NCBI RefSeq assembly: GCF_025698545.1
Contig: NC_068567.1
Location: forward strand, 59,277,371 to 59,341,370
Reading direction: 5' to 3'
Length of the DNA: 64,000 nt
DNA from: Gossypium raimondii
Taxonomy: Eukaryota; Streptophyta; Magnoliopsida; Malvales; Malvaceae
Part shown: positions 8,320 through 34,360 of the stretch, piece by piece
How the letters are laid out: every line of letters begins with the position of its first letter
Numbering within the stretch: the stretch's first letter is position 1
Notes under the pieces: generated by a model
Told to the model about the DNA's origin: nothing
The model's input: only the letters and a program-made list of their open reading frames with translations
Database searches by the model: none
Program-made: the position numbers and the translations under genes

Positions 8320-9445
8320 AAAATTCAATTCCCCCTCCACACTTCTCACTTCTTTATCTATTATCACTCAACATCTAAAAGAAAATAATTTTCCCCCCAA
8401 GAATTTCTCAACCTGCATAATCAAAGAACATTAAACAGGCAAAAACAAAAAAACCCAGCAACAAAAACAACTTTAAACACCCCCAGGCCTAAATTTTCCT
8501 ATATAAACAGAAAATCAAAACAAAATCATGAAATGGGCATGTTAGAATTTTCCTTACCGATCCACCAAAACACCCAATTCACAAGAAGAAGAAAAAAAAA
8601 TACTAAGAACAAACAAACCACAGCTGTACAAGACTTGAATTTCCCCAATTGTTGACTATCCTTCCCTTGTTCTCAATAGAGAAAAGTAACAAATATATGT
8701 AAAAGAATTAAATGCTTACAAAATAAGGACAAAAAAACCTTAGAATAGTATATTGACTGATAAAGAAACGCAAAATAAAGTCTTTGGAGGGGCAAAAGGA
8801 AAAAGAAAGAAAATAAATAGGGTACCCTTATTGACTTTTCTCTATGTCTGGGTTTGGTTTTTTCATTGTTTACTGAGTACTAAGAAAGGTAATATTTTTT
8901 ACCATTTTTTTCTTTTCTTTTTCATTATTTTATCAATCTCCATTAATTAGTGCTTGAGAAACTGTAAATTGGGAATTCTTGGATCATTCACCAAAGGAAG
9001 TGGAAGGCTCTTTAAAGTCAGCTCATTTGTTTAATCTTCAAGTGCCAACTGGCAAACCATCTTTATTTATTCCTTTTTTTGGTTATATATTTATTATTTA
9101 ATTTTAATTTATTATTATAGTTCATCTTTGTCTCCAGATAAATGATTTTATAAGCTTTTTCCATCAGATTATTTATTTTCTTTTTTAATTATTTACTGAT
9201 ATTTTAGTACATTTATTCATTTTATTGATATATAATTTTGATTTTTTACCTTAAACCCTAAATTTAGACATTTTAAGATTAGAATTTAGAGGTTAGAGTT
9301 TAGGGTTTGAGATTTAGGTTAAAAAATTAGCAAAATTATGTATAAATGACATGGAATAAATTGTAATTGGAAAGGAGGATGGATAATGTGGTGGGAAAAA
9401 TAATTTCTCTCGTGTATGTAGTTATATAGTCTTTCATAAATTCTA
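8320..9445. other. 5' flank of PP2C; no other gene
   Basis: This region upstream of the minus-strand PP2C gene should contain its 5' UTR and promoter. It is AT-rich and includes pyrimidine-rich tracts at 8900-8925. I see no second gene. Confidence 0.4.
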
Positions 9446-10410
9446 AATTTTATAGGATAACTTACTTAATTGGTTACCCAACTTTTAAGGTATTTTCATT
9501 TTAGTCATTGAAGTTTTAAATCTCTAAAGACGGTTAATTGAACATGCAATATCATGTTTGTACTTTCATTTTGGTCACTCAATTTTTAAGTCGCTTTCAT
9601 TTTAGTCACCCAAAAATAGATTTTAAGTATTGATCGAGGTAAAAAATCAAGCATTAAAGTGAAAAAGAAATAGAAATTAAACTAATATACAAAATTGTCA
9701 AATTGTACTTGTTTATCCTAAAGTCAAAATTTTAAAAAATTTAACATTAAAATTTTAAATTTCAAAACATCAAAATAAATTTAATAAATTGTTGAAATTG
9801 CTTTTAGTAATTGATAATATCAACCGATTTATTTCTATAATATTAAAATTAATTTTTTAAAAACTTTTAAATTTTACTTTGTGTTTCCAGATTATTTCTA
9901 ATGAAATAAACTCAAATTTAATAATTGACTATGAAACTTAAATTTCTTTTGATTATATAATCTCGAATCTTTCCATGCTAAGCTAAAAGTAAAGGGAAAA
10001 AAACATACTTGCAATTAATTAAATTATTGCTTGTTTTTGTTTGGAATGAAAGATAAAATTAATGAATTCAATTAATTGAAAGGATTTTTCTTTGTTTTTA
10101 TTTTAATACCAAGATTCAAGACCATATAATCAAATGAAAATTGAGTTTTGCATACAACTATTAAAATCGATACTTTTCAAAAATAATTTTTGAAAATAAT
10201 TTCAAAACATTAAAATAAATTATGAAATTTTTTTATCCATTGAAAATATCTACTGATTTGCCACTATAATTTTGAGTCTTAATATTTAAAACTTATATTT
10301 AAAAATCGAAAGTTAGAATTTTAGCAATGGGATAAATAACTACAAGACAAGTTTTGTGTATTATTTAATTTTTACCGTCTTTTCAATTTAATCCTTGATT
10401 TTTAAGCATG
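9446..10410. mobile_element. Long fold-back element, copy 2
   Basis: This has the same order of motifs as the element at 2917-4052: GGTTACCCAAC, a TCATTTTGGTCACTCAA block, GATCGAGGTAAAAAATCAAG, a CATGCTAAGCTAAAAGTAAA block, an AATTAATT-rich loop near 10010-10080, and then the blocks in reverse complement (GTGTATTATTTAATTTTTAC, TTTAATCCTTGATTTTTAAG). The right arm stops early, so this copy is truncated or worn at its right end. It is in the same orientation as copy 1. Confidence 0.6.
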
Positions 10411-10735
10411 ATTTATACTAACTTGTTTGTTTTTAAACATGTTTATCTCTAGTTCATATTTATTAATAATTTCAAAATTGCATTCGTCTTTGTTTAAAGT
10501 TATATGTGTTGATGTTCATTTATTTAAGTTATATTAGTTTATTAGCCAACATTAAACAAGCATGCTCTTAAAATTAAACGAATCTGTTTAACAAAACATA
10601 TAATTGTACATGTTCACAAAAATGTTTATAAATAATAAGCAAACAAACAAACAGTAAATATATATTATTTTTAGACATAAAATAATCAAATAAATATATT
10701 ATAAATGAATAAAATATAGGATTATTATCATGTAC
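10411..10735. other. AT-rich intergenic DNA
   Basis: Very AT-rich sequence with no recognisable gene or repeat boundary. Confidence 0.3.
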
Positions 10736-10740
10736 ACCAT

Positions 10741-11285
10741 TAGAGGTGTTCATGGGTCGGGTCGGGACAGGTTTAGGTCGAGCTTAAGTATGATATTAGC
10801 ATATTTTATTTTGCCCAAGCCTGACCTAACCCAAAATATAGGTTTAAAATTTTGTTCAAACCTGCTCATATTTGCAAAAGACTAACTCAAGCCCATACTA
10901 TTTTTAATTGTTTTAAAATATTTATATTATATTATTTTAATATTTAATAATTTTACACATTTTTATTTATTGAATTTTTTTATAACATTATTTTAATGTT
11001 TACATTAGAGTAATATTATATATTTTGTATAAGTTTATTTTTTTAATGTGTTCTAAATTACCTAGTATATGTAAAAATAAAATAATAAAAAGTATTATAA
11101 ACTTAAAAACGAGTTGGGTCGGGCTTGAGGCTCAGACCTTGAATATTCAAGCCCGAGCCCAGACCATATTTTAAACGAATCTATTTTTTTTGCCCAAGTC
11201 CATTTTTTGGGTCTAATTTTTTTTACTCAAACCCTTCTAAATTTTAGGCGGGCCTTCGGGTCTGGGCAAGTAGCACCATCAATGG
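10741..11285. repeat. GGGTCGGG/CCCGAGCCC-bordered dispersed repeat, MITE-like
   Basis: The left end (AGGTGTTCATGGGTCGGG) and right part (a reverse-complement-like CGGGCCTTCGGGTCTGGGC) are GC-rich blocks around an AT-rich core. The core also holds GGCTTGAGGCTCAGACC and CAAGCCCGAGCCCAGACC. This organisation is common in dispersed non-autonomous plant repeats. Ends and target duplication are not clear. Confidence 0.45.
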
Positions 11286-12189
11286 AGTAAAAAAAATTCC
11301 ACAAGTAGGTTTAAAATGATATCACTTTTTAACGTGTAGTAAAATAATAATAAAATAATTAAAAGCGACACTTGATGTCATTCTAGACTAGCTTGTGGAG
11401 CTTTTCTTATCCCACTAGCATTGAACAGAATAATTTCCCAATAAAATAAGGACACAAATAAGGGTTATTATTATAAACTCGACAAGTAGCTTTTAGTAAC
11501 TGATATGTATTTGTTTTAAATTTTTTTTGTTAATATTCCCTAAAAGCGCATGCCAGGATTTCAGGGAGTTTTAACTCCACTGATAATGCCCCAAATAATT
11601 TTTTCCCACAAACAATAATGATATTATTACTTATATACAATTAAACAATAAACAACTTGTATAAGAGCTTCAATAAAATTTAAATGAGTTTGTTTATGAA
11701 CACAAATAAACAAAATAAACTTTGTTTGTATTTAATTCGTTTAAATTGTTTATAAACTATTTTATCAAACGCTCTTTCCGATATTATCATTTAGCGAACT
11801 TAATTTATAATATTATTTTAGATAAAGAAAAATATGTTATTTAATAAATTAAAATAATCACATAAATCAAATATAAAAATATATAATATTAAGAATTGGG
11901 TAAAGAAAAGAGGAAAATTCCTTAGTAATTATGAAAGGAAAATATCCTTAGATTTTTCATGATTTAATCTCATTCAATAAGAAGCATTAGATAACACTAT
12001 ATAATGTGTAATTTGGATTGGATATCCACCATGAATATCTAACAAGTGCCATTACATGATTTATACTACAATGTATTAAATACTTTGTAAGTTTAGAGTT
12101 ATTTTATTTTAATTGTTTCTACTATATAATTTTTAATTAATTTTCATTAACAACATATAAACCATATATAATTTAATAAATAAAATTAA
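11286..12189. other. AT-rich intergenic DNA
   Basis: No gene, RNA or clear element is recognisable. Confidence 0.3.
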
Positions 12190-13478
12190 AAATGTTTGAT
12201 CACACCACTAGAGTGCAAATTATATGTTAGTGTGAGCCTACAAGTCAATCGTGATTCGTTTGTAAAGATTAAACAATATTTAATTGTATTGATATGACAT
12301 TTAACACTTGTATATATAAAGCTCATGGAACACATTAGGCTATACAAGAAAATTATAATGAATTATAATTATGAGATCTCTCTGCATTAAAGTTATTATT
12401 CCTAAATTGATTTTGGCTGTTGTATTCTCGAGATAGGACATTGATAATGCTCAAAGGTCAACTCATGTTAAGACTTCATGCACACAATGCATGCAACTAA
12501 TTTCATAAGTTGAAATATAGGTTACTTGAGGATAATATGTAGGTGCTTGTTATAAGAACAAATACATTGAACATGACTTGTTATAAGAGTTCCATTTGGT
12601 ATTTCACTTACGTGCCTATGGAAATACTCTCATGTGTCAATAGTGTAAATAATCCTTAGACTTGTGGCACTAACTCATCTTGTACGTTGAGTGTCATACT
12701 TTGATTCATCATGAAATAGGTCCCTATTAACAAATGCTTAAGGTAATTTTGGATATGACATAAGGCATACGAAGGTGGTAGAGCGGTCCAGAGATGATCC
12801 ATCACTCCAACTAATATGAGGGGACATATCCTATATGCTTTTGACTTATAAAAGCCACAAGTCTTTGGCCAAGACAAGACAATTAGGCAGAGTTAATATG
12901 AGTTGTAGACTAACATGAATAAGCAAAGGTAGACACTGTGCCATGACTTTTAGCTTATTTGGGATATATGATGAAATGTTCAAATTACAAATAAATACCG
13001 AACGCTAAAAGACTTTGTCGAAAATATATTTAGACTATTCCAATAATTAGGGGTCATCATGGGTTGCTAGATATCGCTCATGAATCTACAAATATAATTA
13101 TTTACAGATTGAAATAAATTATATTTCTTGCTAACATAATTGGAAGCCTAATGGGTCGCACACGATAATTGAATTTGAAAACTAAAATAAAAAAATATTA
13201 AATTGAATAATTCAACAAAATTCAAGGGTTAAAATACAATTAATCAAAAGTTGATTAAAACCCTAGCGACATATCTCTGGTAGTTTTTTTTCTCTTTTTT
13301 TTTTCAGAATAAACAAAAAGAAAATAGGCCAAAATTATTCTTTAAATTTATGTTTTCAGTTTTCTTTTCGATATTGAGATTGAAACTGGAAAAGATGTGG
13401 ATCCGCGTGATTAGATTGCTAACACTATCTTCACAAAGTGAATCTCTACCTTATAAATGTTTTCTAAATTCCTAGTGT
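12190..13478. other. Unassigned, possible LTR-derived sequence, target of the CACTA insertion
   Basis: The base composition is more even than in its neighbours, and the stretch contains phrases such as TGATTAAAACCCTAGCGACA that resemble retrotransposon LTR or leader DNA. I cannot find paired LTRs. The CACTA element begins at 13479, and the flank resumes after 20841. Confidence 0.25.
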
Positions 13479-13790
13479 CACTATAGCAAAACAGGCTTTT
13501 AGCGGCATGTTTAGCGGTGTTTGGAAAAAAAACGCCCCTAAAGATCGAGCATTAGCGGCGTTTTTCCAAAAAACGCCGCAAAAAACCTAAGCCTAACGGC
13601 ACCGTTTTCTACCTTTCAGGGCTTTAGCAGCGTTTCTAAAAAAAACACCGCTAATGCTCAGATATTTAGCGGCATTTTTTAAGAAGTGCCGCTAATGCTC
13701 AGATCTTTAGCGGCGTTTTTCAAGAAGCGCCGCTAATGCTCGGGGCTTTAGTGCCGTTTTTGAAAAAGCGCCGCAAAAACATTTTATCTG
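13479..13790 (+). repeat. CACTA left terminal inverted repeat and subterminal array
   Basis: The CACTA terminus is followed by repeated short palindromes built from TTTAGCGGCGTTTTT and AAAAACGCCGCTAA, about ten occurrences in 300 bp. Such subterminal arrays are the transposase-binding region in CACTA elements. Confidence 0.8.
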
Positions 13791-13984
13791 TCTATTTACT
13801 ATTTAATTTGTTTATTTATATTAATTAAAATTCAATTTATTTTTAATTGAATATTTGTTAAAATGGATAAATTTGAAATAATGACACGTAGAAATAATTT
13901 GAAATAAAAATATAGAAAATATTTGTTAAAAATGGAAAAAGTAAAATACTATTATTTAAAATAATTTTAAAATTTTTGGGTACA

Positions 13985-14545
13985 TGATTGATTGATTTTA
14001 ATTTATATATTAAATAATTTCAAATATAATTGTAAAAGATACGATAGTATTAATTTTAAAATATTTAATTTAATTATCATTATAGTTTAGGGTTTAATAT
14101 ATATGGTTTAGGGTATATATATGGTTAATTTAGGATTTAGGGCCGGTTTAAGAGTTACAATTATAAGGTTTATAGATTATGGAATTTGGGATTATGGATT
14201 AAGGATTCTGATTTAATGGTTGTGATTTAAGGTTTATGGGTTAGGGGTTAGAGGTTAATAATTAGGGATTTAGGGTTTATGGATTCAGTTCAAGTTAAGG
14301 TTTAGGGTTTAAATTAATTAGTGTGTTTTAATTTATATATTAAACAATGTTTAGGGGTTAGGGGTTAGGGATTCGAGGTTGGGTTAGGGTTTATGGTTTA
14401 GATTAATTAGTGTTTTTAATTTATATATTAAATAAGGTTTAGGGGTTAGTGGTTAGAGGTTTGGGGTTAAGAGTTAGTGATTTAGGGTTTAGAGATTTAG
14501 GGTCAGGTTAGGGTTTAAGGTTTAGATTAATTAATATTTTTTAAT
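13985..14545 (+). repeat. Tandem units with telomere-like TTTAGGG phrases inside the CACTA element
   Basis: A TTTTAATTTATATATTAAA block recurs near 13995, 14328, 14418 and 14540. It alternates with stretches rich in GGGTTAGGG, TTTAGGG and GGGTTTA phrases (14085-14530). The heptamers are interrupted and not in a perfect array, so this is a local satellite-like expansion and not a telomere. Confidence 0.5.
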
Positions 14546-15760
14546 TTATATATTAAATAAGTTCTTATGTAATTGTAAAAGAGATAATAATAAATTGTAA
14601 ATATTATTAATTTAAAATTGATATGCAATATACAATAATTGAATATAAAAAATTGTAAAATATGAAAGCTTTGGCGGCATTTATAGCCAAAACGCTGCTA
14701 ATATGTATTAGAATTTTCCAAAACGGTGTCATTTCATCACAAGAATTTAATTTATTAGTGGCGTTTCTTCTGTAAACTCCGGAAAAGGTAATATTAGCGG
14801 TGTTTATGACTAAAAAATATTTAATCTAAACCATTTGATGTATTTAAATATTAGATTTTAAAAAATAAATAAATAAATAAATAAATGTAACAAATTGATA
14901 CGGATAGGTAACTATCTATTTTGGATATATAGGACCAAATTATAACAAATAAAACAAAATACAAAAACTAAAATCATTCCACATCGAACATCTAGCAAAA
15001 TAATTATATTTTAGTTAGGAAGAAATATCTCTAATAAAATGGAGATTAGATCGAAAATGAATAATATAAGATCATGATTAACGTCTCAATCTTTAATAGA
15101 AATTTGATATGTGAGAGATTAATTGCTTACATTGGATAATTCTAACTTAATAATTAATTACAGTCATTTAATCATTTTTCTTATTAAAATATACGATATT
15201 TATTTTGAGAGTACTTGATTTTTTTATAAAAATTCAATTTATAAAAATAATAATAAATGTTTTATAAAATCACTTAACTAATAATTTTAATGAGACAAAA
15301 TAAAATATTTTAACATAGCAAAACAATATCGTTTTATTCCAAATGAAATAATTTTTTGCGGCATTTTTATGAAAAACGCCGCAAAAGATAAGCAATAGCG
15401 ACGTTTTTAAAAAAAAGCACAAAAAATAATTTTACTTTAAAAAATAACGACATTTTATATAGTAAAACAATATCGTTTTATTCCAAATAAAATAATTTTC
15501 TATGGTATTTTTATGAAAAATACCACAAAAGATAAGCAATATAAAAACGTCACAAAAAATAATTTTACTTTGAAAAAAAAATCCCATTTTATAAAATCCC
15601 TTCCCCCCTCAAACCCCAACTTTCCCCCTTGAAACCCCCAACTTTACAAACATACCGTCCTTAAAAACTTTTAACTCCATGCTCATTGCTATCTTTTCTT
15701 CCTCAGCCCCAATTTTTAAACGCCCAAACTTTCCAAGGACTTGACTTCAATTTTCTCCAG

Positions 15761-16060
15761 GGACGAACTTATAGAGCTTGATGCGCGTGCTTATTCTAAT
15801 TGTAATGAGCCAATTACTTGTATGGCAGCGTCTTTTGCTTGGGAGAAATGATGGATCTGTTACTTGCTTCCAACTTGGCTTGCTTCACCAAACTGTTTCT
15901 GGTATCTAATCTTTTTACAACTCATTCTTATTTTGTTATGTTATGGTTGTTATCGCATGTAAAACTTTCTGACTCTTAACTTTCCCAATTTAGGTTTTGT
16001 ATCTGAACTGCGTGATGATTCAGGGGTTAGCCTAGGTCGCTTGTGGGGTTTCATGTCAAG
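15761..16060 (+). pseudogene. NUP160: Captured NUP160-like (nucleoporin) fragment, two exons
   Basis: Exon A (15761-15901) includes GRNDGSVTCFQLG and exon B (15994-16060) encodes FVSELRDDSG then RLWGFMSR; the intron between them has GT-AG borders. These peptides match my recollection of plant nucleoporin NUP160/SAR1, where a GRxDGSxxCFQLG segment precedes an ELRDDSG...LWGFMSR segment. The upstream part of exon A (DARAYSNCNEPITCMAASFAW) is open in a different frame from GRNDGS, so the fragment carries a frameshift. It is a captured piece of a very large gene and is not functional as a nucleoporin. Confidence 0.6.
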
Positions 16061-17559
16061 GTATCTTTTTTTCTACATTGAGTAATAAATATATGTCCAT
16101 TGTGCAAAAAGTATTGTACTCATCTGGGAATGTATATTTACTAAACTTGCCTGTTTTAATGATCTATATTTGGCAAAAATTCAGTATAAGTCATCAAAAT
16201 GTGCTTTAGGCTGTCTTTGAAATTTTGAATCATGGGAAAAATGTGAAGACATTGAAATGTATTAAATGTGAAAGAATTGAAAGTATAATATATGGGAGAA
16301 AACATTTTCCAATCTTGTTTGAGTGTGAAGGGAAAATGAGAGGATAAACTAAGAGACCAATTAAAGGAAAAGGATTCCAGTTTTTTCTTTTAAAATACTG
16401 TTTCCATCTTGTTTTCTTGTTCATTTTCCTTCACTTTTTTTCTAACATCTAAATTAGCATTAATTTTCTTTATCAAGTGTGATTTGGCTTATGTAGTGTT
16501 CGTTTGCATGTTGTCTGAAAAGCTTAAAATTATGGTTGGACAAGATGAATAGGTCTAGTGTTTTGCTGTTTACCTGCTATAGTTATAAATGGTTTACTCT
16601 CTGTACCTCCAAAAAACTTCTTCTGAATCAACTTTCGTATTGGTTCTTGTTCCATCTCATTGATGGTGGCAGCTACTAGAGTTGTCTACTAACTTCCATA
16701 CCACAAGTCTTAGGATCTTGGTGGATGCCCAAGGATTGCGTTGGAGAGAGGTTTGGAGTGAGAACGTTTTCTTCTAATTGATATTCTCAGTAAGTTAATT
16801 TTCACTGGTATTAGGATTCAATATAGTGCGTATGATAGTCCTGTTAGGAATAGGTTTCTTACTAAACTCTAACCAGGAGTTAGATACATGCGAGTGTGTA
16901 TAGATGAATGGATTTGACACGATTTGACCTAACCTATAATCCAACATAGCTGGAAATGGTTAAACTTATGTTTTGAATTTTATGCTTGATTTGATTATAT
17001 CTGTGTCACAATCATTGTTTTCTCTTCTAATGGGTCAACAAAGAGGTAAAATGTCCACCTTTATTTAATCAATCTTTGTCGTCACTTTTTTTAAGAAATA
17101 TGTAAATTCTTTAAGAGTTCTCTCCGGGTAAAATTGGATTTAAAGGTATTTTTTACTCGATTTAAATTCAAATTTTAGATAAAATAAAATAAAATTGGAA
17201 TAGAATTGAGTCGAACTCGAATACAGAGAAATGCTCTAAACTTGATTGAGTGCTATTATAAAAGTTAAACCGCAGGTGCAGAGTCGTTGAAGTCTGGGTC
17301 TATTGATGAAAGAGGCGACAAGGAGGTTAGTATATCTTCTAAAACCACTGTTGAGTATCAAATTTGTCAACTTGTTGGGAAATCTTGGACTATGAGGTTA
17401 AGCTTTACGAGATGGTCTTTTGCCGGTTGAGTATGAAATAAGTTAGACCCTTTGTTACATTTCGCAGTATCATAGCTTTAATTGAAATAGAAATAGTTAA
17501 TTAGTTACTTTAGTATTACTCTGAATTGTGTGACATCTATCGTTTACTTAACTTCAAAG

Positions 17560-17708
17560 CACTTGATGAAATGGGAGACCGTATAAATGAGCTGGAGCAG
17601 AGCATCAATGACCTAAAAGCAGAGATAGGAATGGAGGGCTCTCCATCCCCTTTAGCCCCACCTAAGCAAAAGTCAGACGGAGCGAATCAAGAGGATGACT
17701 CTGCATAA
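17560..17708 (+). pseudogene. HSBP: Captured HSBP (heat shock factor-binding protein) last exon
   Basis: After an AG acceptor (17558-17559) the reading frame gives LDEMGDRINELEQSINDLKA, followed by EIGMEGSPSP and a hydrophilic tail ending at TAA (17706-17708). This is the heptad-repeat C-terminal half of plant HSBP, a small coiled-coil protein that binds heat-shock factors. The upstream HSBP exons are not visible, so only the 3' exon was captured. The frame is intact. Confidence 0.8.
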
Positions 17709-18102
17709 AACTTGGCCAAAGATTGTATTTAGCGGTTAATTGTGAATGCAATTCATTCTAATTTGGTGATATCTTGTTTTGGGTTTAGATGATTTCGATC
17801 TTAGCTTTCAGTTGTTTTTAATTTGGGTTCTGAGGTTTATTTATTGCGTGTGGTTTTAGATCATTAGGGACACAGTTCACTTCAGAGTTATGTTAATTTG
17901 GTTTTGAGTTAAATTTTGTATGATCCAATTGAGTTGAGTTAAAAAAGGGTTTTCTGGGTTTTATAATTTGCTTCTTTAATAACTGCTTTTCTTTTTTTGT
18001 TCATTTATATTCTTATGTTTTCCATGTGTTTGTTTTAATGCCTGTTTGGTATTTAATATATATATATGTTTTGTTGGCTTTGAAGGTACGAAGATCCTCA
18101 TC

Positions 18103-19610
18103 ATGGTGAGGGGAAAAGCACAAATGAGGCGCATAGAGAACGATACGAGCAGGCAAGTTACATTCTCAAAACGACGAAATGGGCTACTAAAGAAAGCTTT
18201 TGAACTATCAGTTCTTTGTGATGCTGAAGTTGCTTTAATCATCTTCTCTCCTAAAGGCAAGCTCTTTGAATTTGCAAGCTGTAGGTAAATAATATTTTTC
18301 TTTAAACCCCCCATCCTTTTCAATTAATTTGCTGTTCAGCACCAATTTTCATACTTAGGGTTGTTTGATTCTGCCATAAAAACTCTCACTTACGCAGATC
18401 ATTACTCTCCACAACATTGTTCTTTCATGTGGGGTTTTTTCAAGAACCAAAATTAAACTATATTTTATGACTAATCCCTAATTACTATAACAACTTCGTG
18501 ACTAGAATGATGCCGGTTTATAGGACTAACCAAAAGTGAAACCAAAAATATTTAAACTGTACCTTGTCCTAAAAGATAAACTTGAAAATTTTCCTTGTAT
18601 ATGGTGGTGGCTTGAAAAATAATGTTTATTTGAAAGAAAGGGTACAATTTTCTGATAACCTTGTAGTACTATCCCTTTCATCATGTACTGGTATTATTGC
18701 GGTATAAAACAATGTTTTTTCTTAAACTATATTTCTAAAATAAAAGGGTGTCTTGGAAGTATCATATGGAAATGGTTATTTTATTTGTAGGTCTTTTTTA
18801 ATCTATTTATGTAGTATTAGTCTTATTAGAAAAATATATAATTGGATGTTATTCATGTTTAAATCCAATAATTTCTTCAGAGAAAAGACCGCAACATTAG
18901 TCAACTTTGTTTACCTAATGTCTGAATGATCTACAGATGATTTCATATATGACTCTGATCATTGTTTGAAAATGTTTATGTCATGTTTTATATGTACATA
19001 GATATTTTCTTTCATCTTTGAAATTCATTGTGGAAATGCTTAATGATACTGTTTAGTTAATCATTTTTTTTTTCATTTGAGGTTTTTATTGCATTTATGC
19101 CTATATACATGTAGCTTCTGTCCCAATTAAAACATTGTTTGGTTTTTAATTACAAGCTTTTCCATGCATTGATTTGTGTTGCTATTTGGATATATCATTT
19201 ATTTAGCATGCAGCAAACTATAGAACGTTATAGGTGGCATACAAAGGATAACAAAACCAATAAGCCAATTGAACAAAACCTGCAGGTTAGCATGTCTTTT
19301 GTTTTTGATGTCTTAATGCAATTAATTATAGATTTATTTATGATTTTCATCTCTTTACTTTATATAGATTCTCCTCCATTTGTTAGTAAACACATGAATT
19401 TGAATCGCTTGTTTTTGTTAATTGTCACCTATAAATTGGTAAGGTTTAACATTATTGTCCTATTGGATTAATTTCATGTAAATATAAATTATATATATAC
19501 CCAGGTTATTAATTTCATGTTTTTATGGTGCATATTGACTGAGAATGGCAGCATCTAAAGGCTGAATCAGCAAACATGTTGAAGACAGAGGATCTTGAAG
19601 TTTCAAGAAG
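18103..19610 (+). pseudogene. Captured MADS-box gene fragment (SOC1/AGL42-type), exons 1-3
   Basis: Exon 1 (18103-18284) starts with ATG and encodes a full MADS domain: [53 protein letters not shown]. Exon 2 (19207-19285) encodes SMQQTIERYRWHTKDNKTNK plus IEQNLQ. Exon 3 (19552-19610) encodes HLKAESANMLKTEDLEVSRR. All borders are GT-AG and the phases join, so 107 codons are open. This is the M, I and start of the K region of a SOC1-clade type II MADS factor. The next K-box exons are not found; the sequence after 19611 does not resemble them. DNA-binding residues look intact. I call it a fragment because it is truncated and lies inside the CACTA element. Confidence 0.85.
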
Positions 19611-20015
19611 GTATTGGTCTTTTTATAAGATTCAACCCCCCACCAAAATATATATTGGGGTTAAAATATAAGGTAAGTCCATGTACTCTTAAAAATTTTG
19701 ATCCATCTGGACATTAAAGGCTTTCTGCCATGCAGCAATAAGCTCCAGTTGCAGGCTTTTTGGCATATGTAGAATTATCTCGGCACTCACAAATGCTTTT
19801 GCTTGCCAAGGATGTTTCTGGTCTACTTAGATGAACAATGCTTATTTGTTTTTTTGTTTTCTTTTAACTATAAATGATAAGAATGGAGTCTTAATGACAA
19901 TTATTATCAATGCTCTTTTACTCAGTTTCTAGTGCTGCAAGTGTGAGCTAAGAAGAAAAGCTATTTTTTTTTCTTGTTTGTAAAATTGCTAAAACGTGTG
20001 TGCTTATGATAGAAA

Positions 20016-20190
20016 CGTGTGTGCTAAAACTGACTACTGCAAATATGACAACCAGCTCCTCACACTTTTTAAGTCTTCGCTCTACTTCGCAGGCCTTGTT
20101 TCTACATTTGGAGCCTCCTATGTTACTAGAAACAAAGGACGTCGAGCCAGCATCCTTGTTGGTGCAATCAGCATCCTTGTAGGAAAATAG
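20016..20190 (+). pseudogene. Captured STP-type monosaccharide transporter fragment
   Basis: The frame contains DYCKYDNQLLTLFKSSLYFA, GLVSTFGASYVTRN and GRRASILVGAISILVG. This is the segment around transmembrane helix 2 and the GRR motif of plant STP hexose/H+ symporters (STP7/STP14-like ASxxTRxxGRRASI). Only one exon part is present, ending at a TAG (20188-20190). Upstream a 13-bp phrase (AAACGTGTGTGCT) is duplicated in tandem, a possible capture scar. Confidence 0.75.
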
Positions 20191-20191
20191 A

Positions 20192-20515
20192 GGGAGAAGT
20201 AGAAGATAATGGAAAATAATGAAAAAAAAGATAGTTAAAAGAACATAAAAGAAAAAATTAAATTGTTCAAAATGAAAAAAAATATGGGGACCAATTATAT
20301 AATTTAACCTGATTTTTTTGTTTGAAATGATGATTTAATGCGCCACATTAGCTTACCATTATACCGTTAACGACAATTAATGGCTCAATGACTAAAATGT
20401 TACAATACGATAATATAAGTGACTAAAACATAACATTTCAAACATAAGTGACTAAAACGTAATCTGAAGTAAACAAAAGTGACTATGGGTGTAATTTATC
20501 CTATTTTTTATCCTT
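20192..20515 (-). repeat. Dispersed GTGACTAAAA repeat, copy A (inside the CACTA element)
   Basis: The reverse complement of this stretch matches 34040-34360 over about 320 bp in order: TTAGTCACTTATGTTTGAAA, a TTAGTCATTGAG block, GGTATAATGGTAAGCTA, ATTAAATCATCATTTCAAAC, AAATTATATAATTGGTCC and a pyrimidine-rich tail. It is non-coding and probably a non-autonomous element that inserted into the CACTA or was picked up with it. Confidence 0.6.
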
Positions 20516-20609
20516 AAAAGTATATAGTTTAAGGTTTAAATTTCAAAAACATAATATAATATTTATCATAGAAATAAATATTATTTAATTAAAATATTTT
20601 TTAAAAAGT

Positions 20610-20841
20610 CATGTTTTTAGCTGCGTTTGTCAAAAAGCGCCGTTAAAAATCATTTTTATAGTGGCGTTTGTAGTATAAGCGTCGCTAAAGGTCATGTTAG
20701 CGGCGTTTATTCTTTAAAACGCCTCAAGCATTAGTGGCGTTGTCAACAGCAGCGTTTTTTGGGCACTTTTACTTTTAGCGGCGTTAAAAAGCGACGCTAA
20801 AGGCCTAAAAAACGCTGCTAAAAGTCTATTTTGGTGTAGTG
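20610..20841 (-). repeat. CACTA right terminal inverted repeat and subterminal array
   Basis: Repeated AGCGGCGTTTxT/AAAACGC motifs run up to the terminal TTTTGGTGTAGTG. This is the inverted counterpart of the left end. Confidence 0.8.
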
Positions 20842-21378
20842 TGTAGATTACTCATAGTTCTTGATAACCGAACCTAGTACTCATACGAAAACGAAGAAAG
20901 AATTGAACAAGGATGACAACCACCTTTGCTCAAGGTATAAATTCTTCTAGTATATTTTGAATACGATAACATGATAAAATTATTTAAACTAGTTCTAAAT
21001 GGAATCTGATTCGTTGTATATTTTAATTTCCACTAAATTCCTTGATTGTTTCGATTCTATAATGAGATTAACTAAGATATGTTTCAACCCAACAGACGAC
21101 ATTAAAGCATTTATTATTAATTTGGAAGCATTGTACATTGTACATTGTTCATCATACAGAGAGAATACACAGTGCATTAATAATAAAAATGTTTTAGGTA
21201 CACTCCAGAGATCACCTAATGACGATGATCCAACCTTTTATTTTTCTTCAACCTTTTTATTGATTGTGGGTAATAACGATCTTTGTTCAGCCAACATCTC
21301 ACGGCTCTGAATCAATCAGCGATATATATATACATACATATATGTATACATATATAATGTTGCAGCAATATAATTTGT
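20842..21378. other. Spacer between CACTA element and metacaspase 3' end
   Basis: No gene is recognisable. The right CACTA terminus lies only about 540 bp from the metacaspase stop codon, and plus-strand transcription from the captured fragments would converge on that gene. Confidence 0.4.
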
Positions 21379-22969
21379 TTACAGGAACAAATGCTTTTTG
21401 TAAACGTCGAACTCTGCCGAAGACGAAAGAAGTGGTGTCTACATACTCCCAATAAGAAATCAAAAACAAGGAATTAAGCCATGCATATTGAAATGTAATG
21501 TTAAACAAGAAATGGATTAAGTGTATAGTAAATGACCTGTGAGAAATTGGAGTTGAAGAGTCTCCTCAAGAATCTTGTATTAGCAAGGCAACTAGATTGG
21601 TTAACGTTATCAAGGGTTTCTTTAATTAAATCGAATAAGTCTCCATACGTCGGGCCTGGTAATTTCTTCAGAATCTCCGCCAATATGTAGGTCAGTGCAC
21701 CGTTCATCTTGCCGGCGGTAAATGCCTGCACCAGTATTCATGTGTTGTAAATTCATTATGAGAATTTAAGTTCTATATTCATCATCATCATCATCCATGG
21801 ATAGTTAATATTTGAAAAAATGAAAAAAAATTTACACTTACAGAGGTATCGGCAGCGGCTTGGTGATCAAGACAAGCACCAATAGAAATAGCTAATCCAC
21901 CATTTGTACGTTTCTCCGCACCCGACGGAGGACTGCTGTTTACCCATTTTTTCCTGTTTAATGAGGATGATGATAAAGTAAGGGTATAATGAAGAGGTTG
22001 TTTGAGTACTGCCTCTCACTTTCAAATGGGAAAAAAGGTTCAGTTCGTTGAACTTAGAGAATAGAATATCTGTTTATCTGATATTCTTACTTATCATCGA
22101 AAGGCAAAAAAAATTCTTTGGGAATATGAGAAGCTTACTCTTTACTCATATAAACTTTGGGAAGATCTAAAATGGTTCCGCTATGGCAAGCGTCAACAAT
22201 GGCATGAAGCGTAACGCCAGGGGTGAGTGGCCGAACGATGAGGGTATTAAGATCATTATCCACTATCATCCCCGCTTCTTGGAAATCAACCGGACATATA
22301 GTTTCATCGAATCCATCATCCTCATCGTTGTTAAAATCCGGTTGCCGTAACCCATGACCGGAGTAGAAAAACACCAACGAATCTCCCTGCCGGCTGTCAC
22401 TCACCAACCATCTCAATGAATCCTCGATGTTTTTCCTCGTCGGTATAAACCGTGGGTCCGACTCCTCTTCTGCAGTTTTTCTTTTTCCATTAATCATCAC
22501 AACGAAAATGGTAAAACATTAAACAAATATAACTGAAGAACATACCGGTGAGAACCCGAATGAAATGTCCAGGGTACCCGAAATTGTTAATCAACAAATC
22601 TCTCATGTTTCTGACGTCGTTAATGGTTCCTTTAAGTCTATACTGCTTCAAGTTGTTGTAAGTGATTCCGCAAAGCACAGCTCGCTTGCTTGATCTGATC
22701 TTCATCGAGTTGAAAGCCGAGGGGTCGGGATTTAAGGAAGGAGTTACCGTACTTTGATGCACTTTTCCTCTGATTTGGCTATAAAAGCATCTCATTCGGC
22801 TGCGTAGCCCATACTGCTGCTGCTGGCTCGAAGAATATTGTTCATCGGCTGGAATGGGAAGATAGTTAGGTTTGCATGAAGGGCATTCAACATCTGCACC
22901 TTTGGTCACTGATTTCGCCATAAATCTTTGCCTGCATCGTGAGCAAGGTGTGCTTCTTCGCATATCCAT
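21379..22969 (-). CDS. Type I metacaspase (metacaspase-1-like), complete gene
   Basis: Five exons on the minus strand: 22546-22969, 22139-22469, 21842-21953, 21537-21725 and 21379-21438. They total 1116 nt and encode 371 residues with consistent phases. The N-terminus has a CSRC...CPSC zinc-finger-like prodomain (residues about 9-34, the LSD1-type position), then a Gln-rich stretch. The caspase-like p20 region starts SSKRAVLCGITYNN. The catalytic pair is present: His in FFYSGHG and Cys in DACHSGT. The p10 part includes GGLAISIGACLDHQAAADTS and NGALTYILAEIL, ending FDVYKKHLFL. Length is close to Arabidopsis AtMC1 (367). Type I metacaspases are Arg/Lys-specific cysteine proteases acting in cell death and proteostasis. 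It looks intact. Confidence 0.93.
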
Positions 22970-24560
22970 GCTTGCCGATGGATGCTTTCTCAGATGTTGG
23001 CGAGAAGAAAAAAGAGGGTTTTACAAATTGTTACTTATAACTAAATAATTTTGTAATCCACGGATTATGAGGCGACTGATCTTTGGGTTTTATAAGCATC
23101 GATGATGAAGATTAGTGTAAAGAAATGGTGAAATTATTTACATATTACTCACTAAAATTTTAGGTAACACATGAATAATATAATTTAACCAAAATTTCAA
23201 AATCCAAAAGTTCAAGGATTAAAATTGAATAATTTATAAAATACAAAGGTTAAAATTAATCAAATTAAAATATAGAAACTAAATCTACGACTTTCATAAA
23301 ATATAAAAACTAATAGTAAATTTTAACTTTAAATCTAATTCGAGTATTGTGAAAAAAAAGAGAGTACTAATTCACAGTATCCGTAAAGTACTTTTCGAGT
23401 TAAGTTATAATTCGATTCTTGCAAAACAAAAATTAATTAGAACTACTGTGATTTGACAATCAAAAGAATAATGCCTAAAAGGAAGATTTATGATAGGTAC
23501 CATACTAATGCCTAAAAGGAATCTAACGTAAAATGATTAAATTAATTTTGAAAAAATAATTAAATAAACACCTTCTATATTATGAGTAGGGAATGATTCT
23601 ACGACAAATAATTTTATTACCTTTTATTTTTGATAGTGTTTCAAAATAAAATTCTAAACATTTTGTAAAATTAATTTTAATTTTTTCAAATATAAATAAA
23701 CTTTAAATTACTAATATTACAATATTTTTAAACATTAATTTCATTATAGGTTCATTTTTTAACATTTAAATTAGATGATAATGCGTTTCAGTGTAGTTGA
23801 ATCTAAGTTTGTATTGATAACAATACTGATATCAATCGAGTTAAGACACAATCGGCGGTTACAATAATTTTAAAGATGGTAGTAATTGCACATTTAAGAA
23901 AAAAAAAGATGAAACCCTTTCTTTTTTTTCTAGAAGTTTTGACTTATTTTATTCTCAGAAATTAAGCTTAGTCGTTCTTTAGTAGTGGAGAAGCTTTAAT
24001 AGGTGAAGGTACATATGCTTCGCATTAAGCGGCTTTTAAGAGTCGGGGGAAGGAAATTTGTTATTAATTTTCGTAAATTTGAATTTGGATTTTATTTTTA
24101 GGAATTTATCTCTTTATAGTTTTTTTTTAAAATCCATAAACAGGAAAGAAACTCAAATTTGGTCAGCATTCAAAGTCAACTTAGATTTTTACGTGGCATC
24201 AACGAAAACATGATATTTTACTGTCCTCGTTTTCGTAAAATCACGTTATTTGCCAACAAACTATTTCCACTTCAACATATGTTGTAGTGAATGGATTACC
24301 GCGTTTGATGAATGCTCTTTGTCTACTTTGTCAATGAAATTAATAGCTGTTAAGCTGTCCATATTGAGAATCAAATTTTTAGTCTCCACCATGCCATATT
24401 TAGACTATCTTATCTAAATATAAATTTAATATAAAAAAATATTAAAATAATATGTTTAAATTCAATAAGTAGAAGATTATTATGGGTTTTTTACATGAAT
24501 AATATAAAATAAGTTAATATATACGAAAGTAGGATAACAGGAATAATATTTATGAGAATA
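22970..24560. other. Metacaspase 5' flank and AT-rich intergenic DNA
   Basis: The first few hundred bases should hold the metacaspase promoter. A single arm of the fold-back family seen at 25735-26225 is recognisable at about 23160-23340. A short SINE relic lies near 23770-23870. I see no gene. Confidence 0.4.
23770..23870 (-). mobile_element. SINE relic (minus strand)
   Basis: Reading the minus strand gives GTCTTAACTCGATTGATATC, a TAGATTCAACTAC box-B-like block and GAAACGCATTATCATC. This is the same order as in the better copies at 27395-27545 and 28030-28195. It is worn and short. Confidence 0.45.
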
Positions 24561-24564
24561 GGTA

Positions 24565-24775
24565 AAATACACAGTAAAATATGGGTGTCGCTTAACCAAC
24601 GACAGCACCACTTTATTTCTAATAAAAATTTCATTTTCCTGGGTGCAGTCGGATCAATCGGTAGCACCCATATTTTGTATGATACATATAATTTTTTTTA
24701 GTATATAGGAAAAAAAAATATTTTTTTAATTTGGTGCAGCCGATGTGTCAGGCAGCACCCAAAAACTTTTAAAAA
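24565..24775. repeat. Three spaced GGTGC...GCACC imperfect palindromes
   Basis: Three 28-30-bp imperfect palindromes begin near 24587, 24643 and 24734. They have the forms GGTGTCG...GACAGCACC, GGGTGCAGTCGG...GGTAGCACCC and TGGTGCAGCCG...GGCAGCACCCA, separated by AT-rich DNA. Function unknown; possibly subterminal motifs of a transposon. Confidence 0.45.
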
Positions 24776-25094
24776 AATTAGCTGAAAAAAGGAACTCGTG
24801 TTTTAAATGATTTTTTTATATTAAAAACATGAACTCGTGACCGAATGATTGCTATTATTCTAGAAAAAGAAATAAGTAGAATAGGGCAAATTTTTATGAA
24901 GAATAAAAAACTTCAATTTAAAAAAAAAAGAGCATTTATATTTTAATTTAATATTTTTGTACTTTGAAAAAGTTATTTTCCATTTTACTAAATGCAAAAG
25001 ATTTACTTACCAAAAATACTCTCAAACTAGTATAGTAAGTTTTTATGATTTTTATCACAAAACTTCTTGTATTATATTATATATTGTTTTTTTG

Positions 25095-25592
25095 TTTTTT
25101 ATTGAAAAAAATGGGGACAAATTAATCCTTGTATGTTTGACGAGCGAGCAAAACAACCTCTTCGTTAAAATTGCATGGTTAAATGTTTATTTTGGTGTTT
25201 ATAAGGTATAATAACAAATTTAACCTCAACCTTTACAATTTTATTTAATTTGACCACTACTCTTTTATTGGATCGGTATTGTTGTTTTTAATAAAAAATT
25301 TATAACTTTTAATAAATTTTGTTTATACTTTTATGATTTTTAATAATTTTAAAATTTTAAAAGGGCTTAATTGATTTTTTTCAATTTGTTACTAAGACCT
25401 TTTGACCCTTTAGCCTTATTAGTTTCAAAAATTTCTAGTTTATAGAGTTAAATTAAATAAATCAGAAGATTGAGGGCTAAATTTGTTATTATATCTTATA
25501 TATAAACACCAAATTTTAACAAAGGAATTGTTTTGCTCACTCATACAAAAGCTAATTTGTCCAATTTTTCAATAGAAAAATTAAAATACAAT
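25095..25592. mobile_element. Fold-back MITE-like element with about 140-bp inverted repeats
   Basis: The left arm holds ATGGGGACAAATTAATCCTT, GAGCGAGCAAAACAA, TTTGGTGTTTATAAGGTAT and AATAACAAATTTAACCTC. The right arm read on the minus strand gives TTGGACAAATTAGCTTTTG, GAGTGAGCAAAACAATTC, TTTGGTGTTTATATATAAG and AATAACAAATTTAGCCCTC. About 200 bp of non-coding loop lies between. The plus-strand open frame at 24957-25211 is a chance frame across the left arm. Confidence 0.65.
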
Positions 25593-34011: not shown

Positions 34012-34039
34012 GTAAGTGTAAACTATTAAAATAATTACT
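33828..34039. other. MBD8 5' flank with (AAT)n microsatellite
   Basis: A perfect (AAT)n tract of about 12 units lies at 33975-34011, some 150 bp upstream of the MBD8 start codon. It could fall in the 5' UTR or promoter. Confidence 0.7.
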
Positions 34040-34360
34040 TTTGTTTATTTTGGGTTAAATTTTAGTCATTTATGTTTAAAATATTATGTTTTTGTTACTT
34101 ACATTATTGTGTTGTAATATTTTAGTCACTGAACGTTAATTTTCCTTAACGATGTAACGGTAAGCTGGCGTCGCATATTAAATCATCATTTCAAACAAAA
34201 ATTTTAGTTAAATTATACAATTGGTCCTTATATCTTTTTGTTTTGAGCAATTTAATTTTTTTCTTTTATGTTCTTTGAAGTTTCCTTTTCTTTTCTTTTC
34301 TTTTCTTTATTTTCCATTATCTTCTCTTCTTTCTCTATTTTCTCCCTTCTCCATTTCTTT
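34040..34360 (+). repeat. Dispersed GTGACTAAAA repeat, copy B
   Basis: This matches the reverse complement of 20192-20515: TTAGTCATTTATGTTTAAAA, ATTTTAGTCACTGAACG, GTAACGGTAAGCTGGCGTCG, ATTAAATCATCATTTCAAAC, TTATACAATTGGTCC, then a TTTTC-rich tail (34255-34350). Confidence 0.6.

Follow-up and report, generated by a model that had tools for sequence, protein, structure and literature searches.

What is the unit at positions 13479–20841 of this stretch of cotton DNA, and how did pieces of unrelated host genes come to lie in it in a single orientation? The stretch analysed (the window, to which positions refer) is 64,000 nt of Gossypium raimondii contig NC_068567.1 (GCF_025698545.1). The unit (7,363 bp, plus strand) starts with CACTATAGCAAAACAG at 13479 and ends with CTATTTTGGTGTAGTG at 20841. 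It has the terminal inverted repeats (TIRs) of CACTA/En-Spm elements, GCGGCGTTTTT-type subterminal repeats near each end and, by direct reading of the sequence, a TGT target-site duplication (13476–13478 and 20842–20844). An exact 3-bp match is by itself weak evidence for a duplication (1 in 64). We therefore rely on five complete relatives, drawn from 20 10-kb loci (16 family loci and four ordinary gene loci). Their ends are closely similar to those of the window element, and each has a different exact 3-bp duplication (CAA, ATA, CAT, GAA and CTA), which rules out a chance origin of the CACTA ends. None of the remaining 15 loci displayed the two ends together with matching flanks in the scan, some being cut by the locus edge. 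Pack-MULEs have long Mutator TIRs and a longer duplication, and Helitrons have neither TIR nor target duplication; an element with CACTA ends and a 3-bp duplication fits neither class. The ends, the duplication and the five relatives thus bear out the initial annotation, which had proposed a complete CACTA element with matched termini and a TGT duplication.

The same annotation saw no transposase, and we agree. Since no stop-to-stop frame overlapping the element exceeds 128 aa, which is short of transposase size, we regard the element as non-autonomous; the Pfam scan of the element covered six chosen frames. Transposase coding is a trait of autonomous CACTA members only and is not required of non-autonomous ones. 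A transposase source does exist elsewhere in the genome, where Transposase_21 is abundant (at least 150 matches scored, of 964 candidates). Among the matches listed, comparison by eye of 5′ module copies with Transposase_21 gave no close pair of the sort that an autonomous partner carrying this module would show. No gene spanning the insertion site was identified with Pfam in six frames of either flank: 9001–13475 contains no Pfam domain and 20845–25319 one caspase-type domain (∼ 22138–22443, minus strand).

The interior of the element is a mosaic, and every gene piece in it reads on the plus strand. First comes a NUP160-like fragment (15726–17031; exon parts 15732–15901 and 15994–16060, plus introns), 97% identical to C11:7030542-7031860, the sole other match to that part; the donor exon there matches solved NUP160 (E 1.7e-11). 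It is followed by an exon tail and intron of a PAN-domain gene (17029–17269), 92% identical to C1:2604956-2605196, where the donor has a PAN_2 domain (E 1.5e-19); by eye and from general knowledge we take this gene to be of the receptor-kinase type. The next segment (17270–17350) contains an exon-like piece (17275–17325) bordered by AG and GT, with no donor assigned (closest relative 81%, C5:17766439). The HSBP fragment (17351–17943) comprises the last coding exon, with its stop at 17706–17708, and 3′ flank; ∼ 400 bp are deleted at 17776–17779 relative to the donor. Its 17351–17779 part shares 98% identity with a locus on C8 in which three further HSBP exons are recognizable upstream, but not the ATG exon; the Pfam HSBP1 match to the fragment (E 7.2e-6) is below its cut-off. 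A SOC1-type MADS fragment (17942–19701; exons 18103–18284, 19207–19285 and 19552–19610; SRF-TF, E 9.1e-29) derives from C12:35203234-35205311. The piece at 19708–20012, probably intron only, is 97% identical to C11:58228419-58228721, and the donor exon downstream encodes Abhydrolase_6 (E 8e-6); we take this alpha/beta-hydrolase gene to be of the methylesterase type. The reading frames of the piece had suggested antisense coding, a possibility that was dropped once the donor gene proved to have the same orientation. The last gene piece (20027–20184) is an STP sugar-transporter exon fragment, 95% identical to the STP gene at C6:10542731 (Sugar_tr in the donor, E 9.1e-59). One arm of an abundant palindromic repeat also lies inside the element (20179–20502); 26 of its genomic copies among those listed have the opposite arm nearby.

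At least six unrelated genes have thus contributed, with donors elsewhere in the same genome, as is characteristic of Pack-CACTA elements. BLAST identities of the pieces to the six donors are 85–98% with gaps counted. Donors were found for all four fragments named initially (NUP160, HSBP, SOC1-type MADS and STP), but the total of four was too low: it missed the receptor-kinase-type, methylesterase-type and exon-like pieces and the repeat arm. Instead of captured cargo, the pieces might be what is left of an ordinary chimeric gene or of insertions nested within one another, and the presence of at least one arm of another repeat inside the element is in keeping with such a history. We consider this very improbable: each of the six donors has its own locus, the six being spread over five contigs (C1, C6, C8, C11 twice and C12) rather than contiguous in an ordinary locus, and the same joins are seen again in other complete elements, each flanked by its own duplication. 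Of the six listed junctions that adjoin at least one donor-assigned piece, four have 2–6 nt in common, in keeping with the capture model given below; the SOC1/methylesterase and methylesterase/STP junctions, which count against it, have 6 and 14 extra bases instead.

The search for further copies placed the window element as one mosaic in a family sharing a 5′ module. The five complete relatives have in common with it this 2.25-kb module (13479–15731, plus strand; TIR, subterminal repeats and promoter-like leader) and a short 3′ module of subterminal repeats and TIR (20492–20841, plus strand), with reshuffled host pieces between; several copies therefore share ends at different sites, as Pack-CACTA elements do. 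The leader contains TATAAAA (15590–15596, plus strand), a candidate TATA box; TATAAA is kept in 13 of the 15 family sequences looked at and altered in L032 and L035. The leader pattern occurs at 15 places and the reversed pattern at none. Across 21 loci, at least five different sequences stand directly behind the leader. The receptor-kinase-type piece is not among them, as ∼ 165 bp of unassigned DNA separates it from the leader in L049.

The order and orientation of host pieces are constant in the window and the 16 family loci. The SOC1, HSBP, methylesterase-type and STP pieces are common to relatives in fixed order, the STP piece being found at 17 other places at ≥ 92% identity (one of them the donor gene). 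The receptor-kinase-type piece occurs in four elements (window, L033, L036 and L049) and the NUP160 piece in no other element found. Relatives also carry pieces of Pescadillo, Vps35, ORC2 and cap methyltransferase genes, the last three as matches below Pfam cut-offs. TMEM141 matches in two relatives were discounted, being below cut-off and within HSBP-derived DNA.

The claim that all four fragments lie on the plus strand is upheld by the donor alignments, and it extends to the family. All ten host genes (the six window donors plus Pescadillo, Vps35, ORC2 and cap methyltransferase) are sense to the 5′ module. Counted by donor gene, and with three genes resting on sub-cut-off Pfam matches, this would arise by chance ∼ 1 time in 500 (two-sided sign test, ∼ 0.002); with those three left out, seven of seven firm donors are sense (1 in 64, two-sided sign test, ∼ 0.016). 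We regard this uniform sense orientation as the interesting and testable part of the cotton family. It could lack selective meaning if a few early captures were sense by luck and were inherited through descent and exchange. The elements are indeed not independent, because the SOC1, HSBP, methylesterase-type and STP pieces are shared in fixed order. However, the count above is by donor gene and not by element, and the NUP160 piece and the receptor-kinase-type piece, with their narrow distribution, are sense too; we therefore judge luck and descent to be a somewhat unlikely explanation.

The reading we prefer, and hold with considerable confidence, is a non-autonomous Pack-CACTA (CACTA/En-Spm) family that is mobilized in trans and captures host DNA behind its leader, with sense pieces tolerated. 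Transposase from autonomous CACTA elements elsewhere would move the element. Host DNA would be gained mostly just behind the 5′ leader, either by gap repair or when neighbouring insertions give rise to hybrid elements, and copies would diversify through internal deletion and exchange between family members. The leader is probably a promoter, from which transcription is predicted to run on through the captured DNA. Pieces in sense, with introns that can be spliced out, would probably be tolerated; antisense pieces, whose RNA would be complementary to host genes, would be purged.

Capture behind the leader could have left a stepwise record, with the youngest piece beside the leader and the oldest near the 3′ end. 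The NUP160 piece beside the leader is the least diverged from its donor (0.017) and has no copy except that donor, and the STP piece near the 3′ end shows greater divergence (0.052) and is widespread. The trend is not monotonic, however, since the methylesterase-type piece (0.024) lies between SOC1 (0.037) and STP; the error ranges overlap, the sites compared include both exon and intron positions, and the value for the receptor-kinase-type piece (0.074) comes from an uncertain donor copy. Divergence from the donors thus does not support a clean age order along the element, and we put a stepwise record at slightly under an even chance.

Usable splice sites had been ascribed to all four named fragments. 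Several are intact, but the STP piece is an exon interior without native splice sites, and the NUP160-like fragment has a broken coding frame. The three consecutive SOC1-type exons keep their splice sites and, spliced in silico, are open for 106 codons; starting exon 3 at 19544 gives a stop, and the acceptor at 19552 was used instead. Comparison of the MADS exon with its donor (two synonymous and three non-synonymous differences) gave no sign of constraint. From the sequence, a chimeric message joining captured pieces is possible, and a truncated MADS-domain product might come from the SOC1-type part; the remaining cargo looks neutral. We speculate that the family acts as a promoter-driven natural exon trap, in which host DNA repeatedly gained in one region behind a conserved TATA leader survives only in sense, giving spliced, host-like RNA that avoids silencing; one of the products, a truncated MADS protein of SOC1 type, might disturb the control of flowering. 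Taken as a whole, we consider this reading unlikely.

The window element is a member of a Pack-CACTA family of the Tgm-Express/Tpn1 kind, and elements of this general kind have been described before in soybean, morning glory and Arabidopsis. Tgm-Express1, in the soybean wp allele, is a 5.7-kb CACTA element that holds exon-intron pieces from five unrelated genes, and all five were incorporated as additional exons into chimeric transcripts (PMC1947982). By our reasoning this implies that the five pieces are co-oriented with the interrupted gene. Element class, similar size and cargo match the cotton element, but Tgm-Express1 sits in an expressed gene and its isolated transcripts start at that gene's promoter, whereas the cotton element has its promoter-like leader inside and no gene identified across its site; splicing is shown by transcripts for Tgm-Express1, and would be possible in the cotton element from its splice sites. 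Tpn1 of Ipomoea nil is a large family of non-autonomous CACTA elements (average 7,081 bp) that likewise have ends in common, are flanked by 3-bp duplications and contain host sequences in place of internal parts (PMC5105172). A putative autonomous partner was identified for Tpn1, in contrast to the cotton family among the matches listed, and the portion of the Tpn1 account used here contains no report of captured-gene orientation (PMC5105172). In Arabidopsis, rice and maize, Pack-CACTA and other Pack-TYPE elements are similarly non-autonomous and enclose host coding DNA between their TIRs; as in cotton, a single element can draw on several donor loci, and fused copies occur (PMC8903248). The corresponding part of that account reports no orientation bias, and the cotton family differs in keeping a 5′ module of 2.25 kb that includes a TATA-like leader. 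In Chenopodium CACTA-like elements, the 5′ region ahead of ORF1 holds the captured fragments; the authors suggest that this region is capture-prone and also mention such fragments as a camouflage that protects against silencing (PMC8978399). Transposase domains are retained in those elements, whereas the cotton element has none and carries several pieces behind its 5′ module. Sequential capture of several gene fragments is also seen in maize Helitrons (PMC3288121).

With its many copies, shared modules, traceable donors, recurrent capture region behind the leader and ten of ten donors in sense, the cotton family offers a way to test directly whether orientation is under selection, in what order pieces were captured and whether the promoter-trap idea holds, and bears on why gene-capturing transposons retain their pieces and whether capture is oriented. 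A 65-aa 'hypothetical protein' of Gossypium turneri resembles the captured MADS exon, which may serve as a warning to annotators.

The initial annotation of a gene-carrying CACTA element is sound, and understated. At 13479-20841 we read CACTA ends (CACTATAGCAAAACAG from 13479 on the left, CTATTTTGGTGTAGTG to 20841 on the right) with TGT on both sides, and repeats of the GCGGCGTTTTT type lie subterminally near both ends. The annotation's failure to see a transposase holds: no transposase-size frame overlaps the element, and the longest overlapping frame has 128 aa. The 5′ module (13479-15731), common to relatives, contains degenerate telomere-like (TTTAGGG-like) stretches at 14083-14520. A Peptidase_C14 (caspase-type) domain, probably a metacaspase gene, adjoins the insertion on the minus strand (∼ 22138-22443).

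Donors, i.e. ordinary gene loci matching the captured pieces, were placed by whole-genome DNA searches with element pieces (750.8 Mb, 281 contigs; the window is C3:59277371-59341370). The NUP160 piece (15726-17031) is 97% identical to C11:7030542-7031860, the only other genomic match to that part; the donor exon matches solved NUP160 (9sob_R, E 1.7e-11) and, below the Pfam cut-off, the Nup120/160 propeller. Next come a receptor-kinase-type piece (17029-17269, 92% to C1:2604956-2605196), whose donor gene has a PAN_2 domain and a kinase part judged by eye, and an open, AG/GT-bordered exon-like piece (17270-17350, best relative 81%). The HSBP piece (17351-17943) corresponds to a C8 gene (40341-40342 kb) in which three more exons are recognisable, the SOC1-type piece (17942-19701) derives from C12:35203234-35205311, the methylesterase-type piece (19708-20012), probably intron only, from C11:58228419-58228721, and the STP piece (20027-20184) from C6:10542731. 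The NUP160, HSBP, SOC1-type and STP fragments first proposed are thus all real, each with a donor (C11, C8, C12 and C6), but a count of four was too low: the genome-wide alignment suggested at the time located six donors, plus further copies of the element family. Also inside the element, at 20179-20502, is a lone arm of a highly abundant palindromic repeat, whereas genomic copies have the opposite arm ∼ 150 bp off; the same repeat recurs at 34031-34342. Within the SOC1 intron piece, ∼ 150 bp (19017-19169) match at least seven genomic places at 98–99% and are probably a short repeat. SOC1-derived pieces corresponding to 18200-18496 and 18834-19055 recur on one strand in swapped order at three places (G000; C12:16498164-16499071, C9:29427424-29428327 and C8:54641469-54642239), which looks like another arrangement or another mobile family.

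All six donors in the window are sense to the 5′ module, as the single-strand claim had it, and this extends to relatives. Twenty 10-kb loci were set against the element, a sample drawn from search matches and hence biased towards the HSBP–SOC1 part; 16 are family loci and four ordinary gene loci (L022, L027, L030, L031). Both ends with identical 3-bp flanks occur in 5 of the 20, and these five were re-read. In a mosaic map of 18 records (window, 16 family loci, HSBP donor; pieces ≥ 50 bp, ≥ 80% identity; direction of L040 set from weak module matches only), every donor piece is sense and the order constant. Probably ∼ 1.7 kb of HSBP was captured originally and then trimmed differently among copies. 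At L028:7087 a second CACTA element starts in opposite orientation, exactly where the family member's 5′ module stops; this may reflect adjacency or simple insertion of the second into the first.

A six-frame Pfam scan between the modules (E ≤ 0.01) covered L037, L034, L026, L024, L021 and L025, and L032 and L033 over part of their length; L023, L028, L029, L035, L036, L038-L040, L049-L054 and the window element lie outside it. Host matches in these eight relatives (MADS, HSBP1, PAN_2, Pescadillo, Vps35, ORC2, cap methyltransferase) are all sense, with no antisense host domain at this threshold. Pescadillo passes the curated cut-off in L021 and L025; ORC2 (E ∼ 0.004), cap methyltransferase (∼ 5e-5) and Vps35 (1.4e-7) fall below it. 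Splice-like sites border the ORC2, cap methyltransferase and Pescadillo pieces. A TMEM141 match, also sense, was below cut-off and dropped. Counted per donor gene, 10/10 are sense (six in the window, four new in relatives), or 7/7 without the three sub-cut-off genes.

The 5′ module carries TATAAAA at 15590-15596. Of 15 family sequences, L032 and L035 have a changed TATAAA and the other 13 retain it. In relatives the leader runs on to CTATTTTTTCTTTCTCTGCAGAACTT (15 places at ≤ 2 mismatches versus none for the reversed control). What follows the leader was compared in 21 sequences (15 + 6): NUP160 in one (the window); HSBP in five (L021, L023, L024, L025, L028); ∼ 165 bp without a named donor, then the receptor-kinase-type piece, in three (L033, L036, L049); a second piece without a named donor in nine (L032, L037-L039, L050-L054), which diverge further on; downstream DNA of L037-L039, joined earlier, in two (L034, L035); and yet another sequence in L026. 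Leader junctions are scattered across ∼ 110 bp of leader. It is the uniform sense orientation behind a common leader, together with this recurrent capture region, that deserves follow-up.

The genome is rich in Transposase_21 (150 matches were scored among 964 candidates), so mobilization of the family in trans is plausible. Capture could proceed via tandem insertions, new DNA entering between two elements' 5′ and 3′ parts. The consulted portion of a review describes such a model for Pack-CACTA, predicting that the captured sequence is flanked by the 5′ part of one element and the 3′ part of a second (PMC13317346); new DNA directly behind the 5′ module fits this prediction. Four junctions share 2–6 bases and two carry extra bases. 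Gene-capturing CACTA elements as a kind are already known; comparison systems, from the portions consulted, are Tgm-Express1 (PMC1947982), Tpn1 (PMC5105172), Pack-TYPE (PMC8903248), capture by wheat CACTA elements (PMC4290129), Chenopodium CACTA elements (PMC8978399) and Helitrons (PMC3288121). For cotton CACTA elements, no description of captured genes appeared by title or abstract start among the matches listed, and the portion consulted of GrTEdb for G. raimondii (275 CACTAs; PMC5467567) lacks the word 'captur'.

The NUP160 frame in the window is broken. In-silico splicing of the SOC1-type exons (18103-18284, 19207-19285, 19552-19610) yields an open 106-codon frame, with a 3-bp deletion in exon 3 relative to the donor. 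The MADS exon differs from its donor by two synonymous and three non-synonymous changes; constraint is therefore not visible. Jukes–Cantor divergence from the donor is lowest in NUP160 (0.017), and the other pieces show no clean order: methylesterase type 0.024, STP 0.052, HSBP 0.024 and 0.051, SOC1 0.037 and 0.037, receptor-kinase type 0.074 (donor copy uncertain). Among proteins, the MADS exon is matched best by a record from Gossypium turneri. The predicted G. turneri protein P0001 (65 aa) has alanine at MADS residue 6, like most family copies, where the donor has threonine; its annotation may stem from an exon that this transposon family captured.
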